From Sporocytophaga myxococcoides DSM 11118 (GTDB lineage: Bacteria > Bacteroidota > Bacteroidia > Cytophagales > Cytophagaceae), in NCBI RefSeq assembly GCF_000426725.1, contig NZ_AUFX01000009.1, forward strand, positions 1-64,000: a stretch of DNA of 64,000 nt. The letters run 5' to 3'. Below, one piece after another: positions 9,367-13,570 of the stretch; positions within the stretch are counted from its first letter, which is position 1; each line of letters begins with the position of its first letter. A model generated the notes under the pieces. That model was given only the letters and a program-made list of their open reading frames with translations, was not told the DNA's origin and did no database searches. Position numbers and translations under genes: made by a program.

Positions 9367-10857
9367 TTATTTCTCAGAATTAAATGCTTGCGAAGTATGT
9401 CCAAGTATCTTTCTGTCTTTCTTATCGTTTTCAATCCTCTGATTGATTTGTGCTGTCAATGAAGCTACAACTGCTTTTAATGCAGGATTGCCAGCCACAT
9501 TTTTGTTCTCATCAGGATCAGAAGTATGGTCATAGAGTTCCAGAACGGTCTCGTTTCCTTTTTTCCACTGCACTAAACGATATCTTCCATCTGTCACGGA
9601 ATAACCATAATAACCACCTTTGAGATATTGACTAAAGGCATAGGTGTTCAGTTTCTTCTTAGGATTAGTTAGCAATGGTTTGAACGATTGACCATGACCC
9701 TGAGCTGGTTTGGGCAATCCTACAATATCTGAAAGCGTTGGATACAGATCAACGAATTGAACAATAGAAGCACTCTTCTGACCTTTAGCCTTCGTTTCCG
9801 GTGTTTTCACGATGAGTGTCACACGAGCAGAGGTTTCATAATTGGTGTGTTTGTTGCTCCACATACCATGCTGACCTAGTTGGTAACCATGGTCACCAAA
9901 AATAACAATGACAGTATTTTCATATACACCATTTTTCTTAAGCCCATCTATAAGCAAACCTATCTGTGCGTCCACATAGCTGGTTGCCGCCAGATACCCA
10001 TGGATCAATTCACGTTTAAAATCATCTGTCAAAGGTTTTGGAACATTATGATATCCGTTCAATTCGTCAAGACTTTGGAGTGCCCAGGCAGGTGCACCTT
10101 CCGGAGCATACTGGTTGTCGGGCAATTTGATCTGACTGCGATCATACAAATCCCAATACTTTTTAGGACTGATATAAGGAATATGCGGATTCGAAAAACC
10201 CACTGCCAGGAAGAATGTAGAATCCTTGATCTTTGCCAAAGCTTTCAGCGCGTTTTCTGTATTACCACCGTCGAGAAAATAGTTATCTGCGGCATCATAG
10301 GATTCAACAGGAGGTCCAAACACCCTGTTTTCTCTTAGTGTCAAATCTAAACCTTGCTTGATCTTTTCTTGTCTTTTGGTTTCAATGATTGCTTGACCTT
10401 CTGGTGCATAACGAGGATTCTTACCTTGATCATGAGGAACAGACCAGCTTCTTGGATCGTCTAAGCCGCCATGAAAGATCTTGCCAAAGCCTTGGGTGAA
10501 ATAGCCATTGTTTTTAAAATGCTGTGGAAGCGTCACTATATTCGGTAAGCTGTCTCTAAAGTGCGGACCAATGGTAATAATGCCCGTCACATCAGGATTC
10601 AGTCCTGTGAGCAAGGAAGTACGAGATGGACTGCACAATGCCTGTTGGCAATAAGCCTTTTCAAACACTACTCCTTCCGAGGCTACTTTGTCAATGTTAG
10701 GTGATTTGACATTAGAGAAACCATAGCACCCTAATTGAGGACGAAGGTTATCAATGGCAATAAAGAGAACATTGTACTTTTTCTTCTGGCTATAGGCCGA
10801 ATGACAAAGTGCAACCATCAACAGCAGTATAGCATTTTGTATAAATCTGAATTTCAT
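9367..10857 (-). CDS. Exported sulfatase, iduronate-2-sulfatase-like
   Basis: This 496-residue sulfatase has a signal peptide ending near residue 23 (CHSAYSQ). It hydrolyses sulfate esters. The active-site motif CSPSR has Cys75, which must be converted to formylglycine. FIAIDNLRPQLG supplies metal-binding Asp/Asn residues and FGDHGYQLGQHG supplies the C-terminal metal and catalytic residues. The NLRPQLGCYG segment and the overall length suit the iduronate-2-sulfatase/choline-sulfatase branch; the real substrate is unknown. It is the second gene of the operon, 74 bp after the other sulfatase, with a strong hairpin between them. The maturation enzyme is plausibly the formylglycine-generating enzyme at 34500-35489. 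Confidence 0.9.
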   Translation of the reverse strand: MKFRFIQNAILLLMVALCHSAYSQKKKYNVLFIAIDNLRPQLGCYGFSNVKSPNIDKVASEGVVFEKAYCQQALCSPSRTSLLTGLNPDVTGIITIGPHFRDSLPNIVTLPQHFKNNGYFTQGFGKIFHGGLDDPRSWSVPHDQGKNPRYAPEGQAIIETKRQEKIKQGLDLTLRENRVFGPPVESYDAADNYFLDGGNTENALKALAKIKDSTFFLAVGFSNPHIPYISPKKYWDLYDRSQIKLPDNQYAPEGAPAWALQSLDELNGYHNVPKPLTDDFKRELIHGYLAATSYVDAQIGLLIDGLKKNGVYENTVIVIFGDHGYQLGQHGMWSNKHTNYETSARVTLIVKTPETKAKGQKSASIVQFVDLYPTLSDIVGLPKPAQGHGQSFKPLLTNPKKKLNTYAFSQYLKGGYYGYSVTDGRYRLVQWKKGNETVLELYDHTSDPDENKNVAGNPALKAVVASLTAQINQRIENDKKDRKILGHTSQAFNSEK

Positions 10858-10931: not shown

Positions 10932-13256
10932 TTACTTTTGATTATTTTCTGAAGTAATCGCAGGATTTAAATTAAGAACAACGTTTTTCAATTTGCCAGT
11001 AAAGGCATAAGGCGATGCATAGGTTTCAGATACAGGCGTAATGATATCCTTGCCAATACTGATCCCTTCATAGTAGGTTCCTTTGGCTTGCCTAGTTACC
11101 TTACCCTCTCCTACTTTGGTTCCGTTTACATACAAACTTCCGGTACCAGTAGGATTTTGGGCCGTGCCATCCAGTTGAAAGTCGTATCTCAGTTCTGCTT
11201 TTCCTGTAGGAAGTATTGCCTTACCGGAATTGATTACAATTTTTTCAAAGCCATAGTTATAAACCACCTGCAATTGTTTGTTTTGGATAAAAAAACTAAA
11301 CCCTGTTGCACGTCCTCCTAAAGCAAACAAGGCTCCTTCTGCACCTTTTGCTGGTATATCCACATTTGCTACAAGAGAAAAAGATTTATTGGTAAAGTTT
11401 GGTACTTCGGTAATCTGAGCGATGCCAGGATAAAAGATCAATTTATCTTTCCCATCAAAAGCAGATGGCGCATTTAAAGGATTATTTTCGGTACCATCCC
11501 GAAGAGGATAGATGTTGTATTTATAGGCTTCATTATCGAAGAGTTCTTTTAGCTCTTGCAGCTTCTCAGGATTTTTGGCTGCCAGATCGATGCGTTCGTT
11601 GTAGTCCTCCTGAAGATTGTAAAGTTCCCATCTGTCTTTGTCGAAGGATTGACCTTTGGGATGATAGGCACTGGCTTTCCAACCATCCTTGTAAATGGAA
11701 CGTGAGCCTGAGATTTCATAGTATTGCACTGTATGGCGAGAAGGGGCAGAAGCATTGGTTATCGAATAAGCCAAACTCGTTCCTTCAAATGGCTCTTGAG
11801 GATATCCATTGATCACAGTAGGAACCTTCGCATTAACCAATTCAATGGTTGTTGGAGTCAGGTCATTGATGTGGCTGTATTGATTACGCACACCTCTCTC
11901 CTTGATACCCTTTGGCCAGAATATAATAAGTGGATTGTGCGTACCACCTTCAGAGTTGGCATCAGCCTTAAAATAACGGAAAGGAGTATTGGTTGCCTGT
12001 GCCCATCCAAGAGGATAGTCCACATTAGAAAATTCAGTACCGATCAAATCTATGTCTTTTAGGTTTTGCTGCAGACGTTGAGCTTCGGTGGCTTTTGGAT
12101 CCACTTCTCTGATTCTGCCTCCTGCCTTGCTGGCTCCATTATCGCCAATGGATACATAGATAAGTGTATTATCCAGCTGGTTGATCTCCTTTAAGTAATT
12201 GATAAAACGGCCAATCTCATAATCAGTGTGAGCAAGAAAGCCTGCATAGATTTCAAAATGGCGGATGGCCAATTTCTTTTCCTCTGCAGGAAGGTCATCC
12301 CATCTCTTCACATTTGGATCGGAAGGTGGCAATGGAAGGTTCTGAGGCACCACGCCTAGCTTTTTCTGGAGTGCCAAAGCTTCATCGCGGTAAGCGTCCC
12401 AGCCTTTGTCGAACTTGCCCTTGAACTTATCACGCCATACCTTGTCGATCTGATGAGGTGAATGGGTGGCACCAGGTGCATAATACAAAAAGAAAGGTTT
12501 ATTGGGATCAATAGATTTTTGATTGTTGATGTATTCGATTGCCTTGTCAGTAATAAGTGTGGTGACGTGTGTTTTATTGTCATCAGCAAGTTCGATCTTT
12601 TTAGTATCATCCCATAACTGAGGATGGTATTGATCAGTAGCACCTGCTAAGAAGCCATAATAATGATCAAATCCTCTACCTGTAGGATAACGGTTAAAAG
12701 GTCCTATTTGTGTCAAATCGCTGGTTGGTGTAAGATGCCACTTTCCAACTGCATAGGTATTATAACCGTTTTCGCGCAGCACCTCAGCAATTGTCCCTTT
12801 TTCAAAAGGAATATAACGGTCATAGCCAGGGGTACCGGCAGGCTGGTTGCTTCCTATGTGGGCAGAATGAGAATTACGCCCTGTCAATAATGCAGTTCTG
12901 GTAGGTGAGCAAACACCAGTGGTGTGGAAATTGGTATAACGAAGTCCATTGTTGGCCAGGCTATCTAAAACGGGGGTCGGAATAAGTCCACCAAAAGCAG
13001 AGGAAGCAGCATATCCGATGTCATCGATAAGGATATAAACAACATTAGGCGCCCCGCTGGACTGCAAAGGCTTTCTCCTATCTGTATAGGATTGCTGTGT
13101 TTCACCAAGCGTCTTCCCTATTTTCCCTTGATATGGCTGCAATGGATCAGACTGCCCGTAGGCAAATTGTGTCAATGCAACAGGCACCAGAAGGCCTGCT
13201 GCCAATAGTCGGAGAAGCTTCCGACTTGTTCTGTTTTTTGTTTTCGTATTTTTCAT
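10932..13256 (-). CDS. Exported arylsulfatase with C-terminal LamG-like domain
   Basis: I start at the ATG at 13256, giving 774 residues; an upstream in-frame ATG at 13283 would add nine. The N-terminus is a signal peptide (KLLRLLAAGLLVPVALTQFAYG). The catalytic domain carries VYILIDDIGYAASSAFGG and the formylglycine motif CSPTRTALLTGR (Cys116), so the enzyme needs the same Cys-to-formylglycine activation as its partner. VGKWHLTP and SIGDNGAS are further sulfatase family motifs. Residues about 615-770 form a beta-rich extension (FSLVANVDIPAKGAEGALFALGG ... LYVNGTKVGEG) resembling a LamG/concanavalin-type carbohydrate-binding module. It is the first gene of the operon, preceded by a Cys-rich small ORF at 13418-13492. 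It is likely periplasmic or surface sulfate scavenging. Confidence 0.9.
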   Translation of the reverse strand: MKNTKTKNRTSRKLLRLLAAGLLVPVALTQFAYGQSDPLQPYQGKIGKTLGETQQSYTDRRKPLQSSGAPNVVYILIDDIGYAASSAFGGLIPTPVLDSLANNGLRYTNFHTTGVCSPTRTALLTGRNSHSAHIGSNQPAGTPGYDRYIPFEKGTIAEVLRENGYNTYAVGKWHLTPTSDLTQIGPFNRYPTGRGFDHYYGFLAGATDQYHPQLWDDTKKIELADDNKTHVTTLITDKAIEYINNQKSIDPNKPFFLYYAPGATHSPHQIDKVWRDKFKGKFDKGWDAYRDEALALQKKLGVVPQNLPLPPSDPNVKRWDDLPAEEKKLAIRHFEIYAGFLAHTDYEIGRFINYLKEINQLDNTLIYVSIGDNGASKAGGRIREVDPKATEAQRLQQNLKDIDLIGTEFSNVDYPLGWAQATNTPFRYFKADANSEGGTHNPLIIFWPKGIKERGVRNQYSHINDLTPTTIELVNAKVPTVINGYPQEPFEGTSLAYSITNASAPSRHTVQYYEISGSRSIYKDGWKASAYHPKGQSFDKDRWELYNLQEDYNERIDLAAKNPEKLQELKELFDNEAYKYNIYPLRDGTENNPLNAPSAFDGKDKLIFYPGIAQITEVPNFTNKSFSLVANVDIPAKGAEGALFALGGRATGFSFFIQNKQLQVVYNYGFEKIVINSGKAILPTGKAELRYDFQLDGTAQNPTGTGSLYVNGTKVGEGKVTRQAKGTYYEGISIGKDIITPVSETYASPYAFTGKLKNVVLNLNPAITSENNQK

Positions 13257-13417
13257 ATATGTTGGTTGTCTGGTAAATCTCATTCAGATCTGTCTATCGT
13301 AAATACCATGTCACATTATTGAACAACAGACACTTCATAGCAGATAAGATTATTGTTTGTTCTTAAATTTTGAAAGCTTGTTGTATACCTTACCACCAAA
13401 GAGCAAGGTCTATGAAT

Positions 13418-13492
13418 TCAGCAACAACAGCAGTTGTCACAAGGGCAAGCAACCGAATAAAAAGAAAAGTTGTGTTGATCTCTTAATTCCAT
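13418..13492 (-). CDS. Putative cysteine-responsive leader peptide (24 codons)
   Basis: The ATG at 13492 opens a 24-codon ORF. It contains six Cys codons and ends CPCDNCCCC-stop, with the last four codons before TGA all cysteine (TGC TGT TGT TGC). It lies 134 nt upstream of the first possible start of the arylsulfatase and in the same direction. A -7-like TAATTTTG lies 71 nt upstream. Its 3' end overlaps a potential hairpin (ACAAC-TGCT-GTTGT). Known biology: ribosome stalling on a run of codons for a limiting amino acid drives attenuation in amino-acid operons, and Cys-tract leader ORFs control sulfur genes in actinobacteria. My inference is that low cysteinyl-tRNA stalls the ribosome here and raises sulfatase expression. 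I see no clear terminator between this ORF and the sulfatase, so the switch may act on translation or mRNA stability. Confidence 0.55.
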   Translation of the reverse strand: MELRDQHNFSFYSVACPCDNCCCC

Positions 13493-13562
13493 AAACAAGA
13501 AGCGTTGATTATTATAAAGGTTGTCATCACTTCATATAGTGAGGAGTCAGGTGGGTCCGGAA

Positions 13563-13570
13563 CAAAATTA
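13563..13570 (-). promoter_or_regulatory. Candidate -7 promoter element of the sulfatase operon
   Basis: On the minus strand this reads TAATTTTG, a full match to TAnnTTTG. The expected transcript start is near 13557, giving about 65 nt before the leader ORF. That stretch contains a small hairpin TCACT/AGTGA (13524-13539 region). No clear -33 TTG is seen at the right spacing. Confidence 0.35.

Follow-up and report, generated by a model that had tools for sequence, protein, structure and literature searches.

Sulfatase operons in several genera of Cytophagales are headed by short open reading frames (ORFs) that end in a run of Cys codons, and one such ORF, in Sporocytophaga myxococcoides DSM 11118, probably belongs, as an atypical case, to a kind of switch that senses cysteine in the service of sulfur scavenging and is apparently undescribed. 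The evidence is stronger for the class of Cys-tail leaders than for this one copy, which lies in the 64,000-nt stretch of contig NZ_AUFX01000009.1 analysed here (positions 1 to 64,000; hereafter the window). On balance, comparison of the sequences leads us to favour a reading of the window ORF as a divergent member of the class and a cysteine-responsive attenuator.

A Cys-ending ORF precedes a sulfatase operon in Sporocytophaga

Reading the minus strand from 13492 to 13418 confirms what the earlier note had described, a 24-codon ORF (MELRDQHNFSFYSVACPCDNCCCC) with six Cys codons, the final four of them consecutive and followed directly by TGA (Table 1). That note had also placed the ORF between the octamer TAATTTTG and the first sulfatase gene, in the same direction, and this is correct: the octamer occupies 13570-13563 and the sulfatase starts at 13283 or 13256, the former lying 134 nt past the leader stop on the same strand and the latter being the more likely start. 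The C-terminus of this sulfatase gives a weak Laminin_G_3-like match, below the Pfam cut-off, and the second sulfatase gene (9367..10857) probably shares its operon. The closest relative, Sporocytophaga sp. BIN9 (a MAG), shares without any change the segment GATAGACAGATCTGAATGAGATTT (window 13275-13298, minus strand), which spans the upstream one of the two possible sulfatase starts.

Table 1 Features of the leader and sulfatase region of the window
Feature	Position	Strand	Remarks
Possible Bacteroidota -7 promoter element, TAATTTTG	13563..13570	-	Within block 13590-13546, 43/45 identical to BIN9
CCACC box	13550..13554	-	62 nt before leader ATG
24-codon leader ORF, MELRDQHNFSFYSVACPCDNCCCC	complement(13418-13492)	-	ATG...TGC TGT TGT TGC TGA
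Cys tail, TGC TGT TGT TGC + TGA	13418..13432	-	Reduced to YSC in BIN9
GGTGG, possible CCACC partner in an unusual place	13393..13397	-	20 nt past leader stop; absent in BIN9
First sulfatase, CSPTR motif, Pfam Sulfatase (E 1e-60)	10932..13283	-	Second possible start 13256
Second sulfatase	9367..10857	-	Downstream of first sulfatase

The octamer is read as a possible promoter element on the basis of TAnnTTTG, which we take to be the Bacteroidota -7 consensus; it is common in the window, with 11 occurrences (seven on the minus strand and four on the plus strand). The tail itself is rare. Four TGY codons followed by TRR are found once in the window (shuffle mean 0.01) and five times in the 6.34-Mb genome, the window ORF included; of the other matches, two are antisense inside genes and one lies in repeat-like DNA, so that none of these three is a leader, and the fourth has TGG in place of a stop. 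In 284 kb of the same genome, window included, there are 236 intergenic ORFs that start with ATG and have 15-45 codons; their last six codons hold no Cys in 204 cases, one in 29, two in two and four in a single case, the window ORF.

The Cys tail is not kept in the closest relative

BIN9 has an orthologous sulfatase (743/783 amino acids, 95% identical) with an alignable upstream region, in which the leader, MELRDQPIFSFYSGTFLCDNYSC, keeps the start, frame and stop of the ORF and ends in CDNYSC, with two Cys against six in the window. The two sequences are identical at 43/45 positions over 13590-13546, at 36/39 in the first 13 codons and at 25/33 in the last 12 codons, and therefore the promoter and the 5' part are conserved, unlike the Cys tail. 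At 25/33 the tail half is conserved no better than the neutral level set by the fourfold sites of the sulfatase (211/318 identical), and the codon changes over the whole ORF, two synonymous and eight nonsynonymous, follow the neutral expectation of 1.8 and 7.5, so that no selection on the leader peptide is seen between the window and BIN9. The pattern expected of an actinobacterial-type leader, a region alignable in close relatives with its Cys run included, was not found in this comparison, the run reading YSC in BIN9. When the window region is aligned locally with the DNA upstream of a Chryseolinea sulfatase, the best match covers the Cys run (25/33 columns, shuffle p 0.038); BIN9 gives no significant match to the Chryseolinea region (p 0.63).

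On the minus strand of 13390-13560, other frames contain a hydrophobic reading (PDPPDSSLYEVMTTFIIINA, FLFIRLLALVTTAVVAEFIDLALWW) that is common to BIN9 and broken by frameshifts. A decayed membrane-protein gene with an out-of-frame Cys run was considered and gave no Pfam match; no intact parent protein of the hydrophobic frame was found in searches of 19, 19 and 291 genomes, and the seven weak pseudogene-parent matches that we inspected looked spurious. The pseudogene was dropped as the main reading because Cys-tail leaders appeared elsewhere, and it is kept here within a broader explanation by chance, according to which the conserved block would consist of a promoter with the 5' end of its RNA, while the Cys run would be an accident made of out-of-frame hydrophobic codons resembling GCT GTT GTT GCT GAA or of random DNA. 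The hydrophobic frame shared with BIN9 fits such an origin, as does a survey of 390 Cytophagales genomes for the pattern N-x-CCC-stop, which occurs at 93 places in 76 genomes: the 30 loci that were read comprised 23 true stops and seven TGG codons, which are no stop, and 21 of the 23 true-stop sites lay inside long ORFs in another frame, leaving outside long ORFs the window and one site without an ATG. Against this origin stand the lack of an intact parent, the uniqueness of such a tail among the 236 intergenic ATG ORFs in 284 kb and the presence of Cys-tail leaders before homologues of the sulfatase in two other genera, and we regard chance as an improbable source of the window ORF.

Cys-tail leaders recur before sulfatase operons in other genera

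An initial survey, which required at least three Cys in the last eight codons, yielded two ORFs in 128 sulfatase upstream regions, as compared with three in the reverse-complement control. In a second survey of 128 distinct upstream regions, a set that differs from the first (loci L010-L039 and L040-L119 plus 24 from the 390-genome search), at least three Cys were required in the last six codons, and three ORFs were recovered, from the window, Chryseolinea serpens and genome G325, with one in the control. All three belong to a subset of 32 regions, defined by a sulfatase with 50% or more identity to that of the window; the other 29 of these have no Cys-tail ORF, and none is found upstream of the 74% homologue (L012, the same as L041). 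Nor was a Cys-tail leader found in 20 further sulfatase upstream stretches (18 from the genome of the window, two from BIN9), and the two PF01507 (cysD/cysH-like) loci in the genome of the window likewise have no Cys-run leader immediately in front of them.

The Chryseolinea serpens leader, MKTKTDLPGTIVHAPHLLHSYSNYCCC, ends in SNYCCC and precedes a 71% homologue of the sulfatase, and that of G325, MKNCELLSRPERTSEVVFSYPDPSYQPCCCC, ends in QPCCCC before a 62% homologue. Two more Chryseolinea loci, located through upstream DNA that they have in common with the first, carry MKMKMFSKDPLGPGAIVKKMTDRLRCCCC (ending RLRCCCC) and MKMKMFPKDLLGPEAIAKNMTDGFRCCCCC (ending GFRCCCCC) before another sulfatase. 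Further leaders end in PCCCCTCL (G041 and G056), QPCCCC (G331), QPCCC (G188), KCCRRYC (G247) and AACCSCC (G316). The class is taken to comprise ATG ORFs with at least three Cys among the last six codons that head a sulfatase operon, and the window leader has each of these features.

These loci formed part of a 1.65-Mb scan consisting of 0.4 Mb of Chryseolinea sp. G293 taken blind from a contig start, 0.4 Mb of the same genome (7.2-7.6 Mb) picked because it contains a known leader and 0.85 Mb from the neighbourhood of sulfatases, of leaders already known and of a cysD-like locus. Outside long ORFs the scan returned 12 ORFs with a Cys tail; the blind part contributed none, and ten head sulfatase or SusC/SusD-sulfatase operons (G325, G291 twice, G293, G041, G056, G331, G188, G247 and G316; in G056 and G188 reading stopped at the first gene, but the stretch is known to contain a sulfatase). 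For G316, G331 and G188 the scan gives a longer TTG-start form, and the endings quoted above are those of the ATG forms. The two remaining ORFs are one in L253 without a gene behind it and a TTG-start ORF at L237:15331, which ends in SDCCC near the Chryseolinea sulfatase locus and stands before another gene, presumably YceI-like. A separate blind 400 kb of G331 contained no promoter dyad of the kind described below and one Cys-tail ORF, with no gene behind it.

The first operon gene encodes a fatty-acid-hydroxylase-like membrane protein in G331 and a protein without a Pfam or NCBIfam match in G041, and SusC, SusD and sulfatases lie behind both; one SusC and one SusD were run against Pfam, the others being named by sequence. 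At locus L284, a small hydrophobic ORF (beginning MTLSDVLLLVKKIAVGIFLTL) sits between the leader and the fatty-acid-hydroxylase-like gene and, by eye, differs from G188 in apparent third-position changes; the operon may thus encode a small membrane protein.

Three species pairs permit the tail to be compared with the rest of the peptide. The tail Cys codons are kept in 4/4 cases between G291 and G293, in 5/5 between G041 and G056 (two by silent change) and in 3/3 between G331 and G188, counts from which an indel adding one tail Cys codon to one member of the first and third pairs was excluded beforehand. Fourfold sites are identical at 233/358, 107/124 and 82/144 positions in these pairs, and the nonsynonymous changes in the ORFs number 7, 5 and 6 against neutral expectations of 7.9, 6.4 and 7.5. 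In these small samples, the retention of the tail in a peptide that is otherwise free to change is what a codon-counting leader predicts, and in the other genera it is the tail that appears conserved, not the body of the peptide. The conservation of a Cys-ending ORF that the earlier note had suggested looking for is thus seen before sulfatases in other Cytophagales genera; BIN9 has lost the run.

A promoter dyad accompanies the other leaders

The dyad TTTG[CT]CTAT-N8-TAG[AG] lies upstream of all ten other leaders with at least three tail Cys, the best case being GTCTAT-CGATTAT-ATAGAC (type GTCTAT-N7-ATAGAC). Within 1.71 Mb (the 1.65-Mb scan and the window), 13 sites match the dyad exactly, seven with one mismatch (at least three of which are the same dyads on the opposite strand), 72 with two and 707 with three. 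All 13 exact dyads head sulfatase-type operons (two judged from the first gene only) and ten are then followed by a Cys tail, a perfect score that is partly the result of selection because most of the 1.71 Mb was chosen around sulfatases; 0.8 Mb of blind DNA (0.4 Mb each of G293 and G331) contains no exact dyad. One of the three exact dyads without a Cys tail is in G256 (L294). The other two are in the genome of the window, at L300:3161 (contig C3) before an FGE-sulfatase operon and at L303:15703 (contig C5) before a SusC/SusD-sulfatase operon, in both cases with no Cys leader. A further exact dyad in Dyadobacter bucti (L042) is followed by a leader ending in PCRSC and then by a sulfatase.

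In the window the dyad is absent, the nearest candidate by the ORF having four mismatches. A degenerate site of this kind at 13499, where it overlaps the start of the ORF, has the second-best score in the window, yet with four mismatches it was rejected because the background is high (707 places with three mismatches in 1.71 Mb). A search of four genomes of the genus for the 21-nt promoter box, with at most three mismatches, returned its two known sites only.

At one Chryseolinea serpens locus (L043:2029-2481) an Rrf2-family gene lies directly upstream of the dyad, a SAM riboswitch and the Cys-tail leader. Its product matches the Pfam family at 3.6e-32, with named kinds including CymR and IscR below their cut-offs, and it is a candidate for the protein that binds the dyad. 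No similar Rrf2 gene was found in the flanking DNA examined beside other leaders.

A SAM riboswitch or a possible CCACC/GGTGG pairing in most leaders

The SAM riboswitch RF00162 stands directly before three Chryseolinea leaders (68.4, 69.5 and 55.8 bits; cut-off 44.4), so that riboswitch and Cys-tail leader are combined in one leader there, whereas the window, like the leader loci of G325, BIN9, G041, G316, G331, G188, G056, G247, G256 and Dyadobacter, has no RF00162 match. No Rfam family matches the window at its gathering score, and a riboswitch there was rejected; the weak matches (E up to 5) are snoRNA-like, with one folP, and fall far below the cut-offs. A further SAM riboswitch in Chryseolinea serpens (L237:8426-8530) precedes an operon whose first gene is presumably a Glu/Leu dehydrogenase, and no Cys tail appeared there in the scan.

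A CCACC box is common to the leaders and, in the others without the riboswitch, lies 26-75 nt before the ATG; it is a motif present within 80 nt upstream of 11 of the 236 intergenic ORFs in the genome of the window. In six of the eight non-SAM leaders outside Sporocytophaga (G325, G331, G188, G247, G316 and Dyadobacter), a GGTGG located 52-65 nt ahead of the leader stop could base-pair with this box, forming 5-8 pairs; G041 and G056 have no such partner. The close relationship of G331 and G188 means that not all six cases are independent, and this CCACC/GGTGG subtype was defined after the data had been seen. Flanking positions of the two arms change in paired fashion (TACCACCA/TGGTGGTA, AACCACCA/TGGTGGTT and CCACCCG/CGGGTGG), and a GGTGG follows CCACC at 20-150 nt in 18/212 cases in seven stretches of leader genomes (leaders included) and in 2/192 in the genome of the window. 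The pairing is part of the minimum-energy fold in G188, G247 and Dyadobacter, and not in G325, G331 and G316. In other genera, then, a dyad and RNA elements appear to be common to the leaders.

The window leader has no GGTGG at 52-65 nt before its stop. The possible hairpin in the Cys run that the earlier note had proposed does appear in the predicted fold, with eight pairs, but the leader as a whole folds no better than shuffled sequences (z -0.78). With its Cys tail, its sulfatase and its CCACC box, and without the dyad, the riboswitch or the usual GGTGG, the window ORF is therefore a divergent relative of the class, not a canonical member.

The same gaps can be read as decay of a leader that once worked at this operon in the ancestor of Sporocytophaga, of which the tail remains in the window with its regulation gone, the dyad and stem having been lost and, in BIN9, the tail too. 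The neutral divergence of the tail from BIN9 agrees with this, as do the missing dyad and canonical stem in the window and the retention of leaders with dyad and full tail by the Chryseolinea and G325 homologues. Decay does not explain as readily why the promoter block (43/45) and the first 13 codons (36/39) are conserved, or why start, frame and stop survive in both the window species and BIN9, and we hold such a relic to be an unlikely, though by no means negligible, account of the window copy.

Proposed mechanism

For a divergent but working leader, as for the class, we propose the following scheme. When charged Cys-tRNA is plentiful, a ribosome would complete the leader and drop off, and transcription, with no ribosome on the RNA, would end ahead of the sulfatase gene, probably by the action of Rho. 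Under a shortage of Cys-tRNA, the ribosome would stall on the Cys tail and shield the RNA, the sulfatases would be made and sulfate would be released. Translation of the leaders, stalling, the part of Rho and the response to sulfur are what we infer from the arrangement read in the DNA, namely the ORF, its recurrence before sulfatase operons and the apparent lack of a terminator.

Rho is proposed because no intrinsic terminator is seen. There is none on the minus strand after the window leader, which thereby differs from a classical transcription attenuator, where an intrinsic terminator follows the leader, and 11 of 12 leaders have none within 300 nt of the stop; the sole candidate, found in G316 at 187 nt past the stop, is located downstream of the point, at 168 nt, where the gene probably starts. 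Over the 110 nt that follow the stop, six of seven independent leaders (all but L043) have more C than G, an excess with a Mann-Whitney p of 0.023 against 254 background regions; in the window this stretch has 17 C and 18 G (C/G 0.94).

The lack of a terminator in 11 of 12 leaders would also suit control of translation, in which the stalled ribosome refolds the RNA and exposes the sulfatase start, or protects the RNA from decay, and in six leaders the leader start lies within the possible CCACC/GGTGG stem. The distance from leader stop to likely gene start, 118-322 nt in the 11 leaders measured, and a window fold no stronger than that of shuffled sequences both tell against it, and we consider translational control very improbable.

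Comparison with known leader peptides

Cys-run leader peptides have been described for the cys operons of Actinobacteria, among them Mycobacterium and Propionibacterium acnes, and for cbs of Bifidobacterium longum (PMC1262725, as far as the part consulted goes), as the earlier note had rightly stated. In that account they resemble the leaders described here in being short ORFs with a Cys run near the stop, upstream of sulfur genes, and in having no conserved terminator; the suggestion of Rho made there, taken with the lack of a terminator here, leads us to favour Rho-dependent attenuation. They differ in belonging to Actinobacteria and cysteine biosynthesis, as against Bacteroidota and sulfatase and SusC/SusD operons, a contrast that holds for the window leader as well, which has the Cys run near its stop and sulfatases, not cysteine biosynthesis genes, behind it. 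The dyad, CCACC box, CCACC/GGTGG pairing and SAM riboswitch of the Cytophagales leaders go unmentioned in section 6 of PMC1262725. Conserved Cys-rich regulatory sORFs are reported in M. tuberculosis (PMC9094748, in the part consulted, citing Canestrari 2020), and the polycysteine sORFs presented by Canestrari 2020 as mycobacterial cysteine-responsive attenuators are said to sense cysteine through their Cys codons, as proposed here; the mycobacterial sORFs are leaderless according to the title of that work, whereas the ATG of the present ORFs lies tens of nucleotides after the presumed RNA start. Within the same phylum, leader-peptide attenuation has been proposed upstream of amino-acid biosynthesis operons in Flavobacterium psychrophilum (PMC9723704), with no Cys run or sulfatase mentioned in the part consulted. 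The titles and abstract openings listed in searches of the open-licence literature contained no Cys-run leader in Bacteroidota; the published Cys-run leaders encountered there are all from Actinobacteria, and the Bacteroidota class is apparently undescribed.

Implications for sulfur scavenging in Cytophagales

The cysteine-sensing idea put forward in the earlier note gains ground for the class, through its recurrence, the tail kept in three species pairs and the SAM riboswitch of Chryseolinea, but less so for the window copy, given the run lost in BIN9 and the lack of a dyad and of the usual stem. Taken more broadly, these elements could form a layered sulfur-scavenging regulon of Cytophagales, with an Rrf2-type dyad, a SAM riboswitch or CCACC/GGTGG stem and a Cys-tRNA-sensing leader set before SusC/SusD-sulfatase operons, a proposal to which we give an even chance. 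If it is true, such sulfatase loci would serve sulfur supply, and not glycan feeding alone. Dyad, CCACC and Cys tail together offer a sequence rule for locating such loci, and Cys-run leaders in Bacteroidota, set before sulfatases and SusC/SusD transporters and, in Chryseolinea, behind a SAM riboswitch, would point to a shortage of sulfur as what governs many sulfatase loci.
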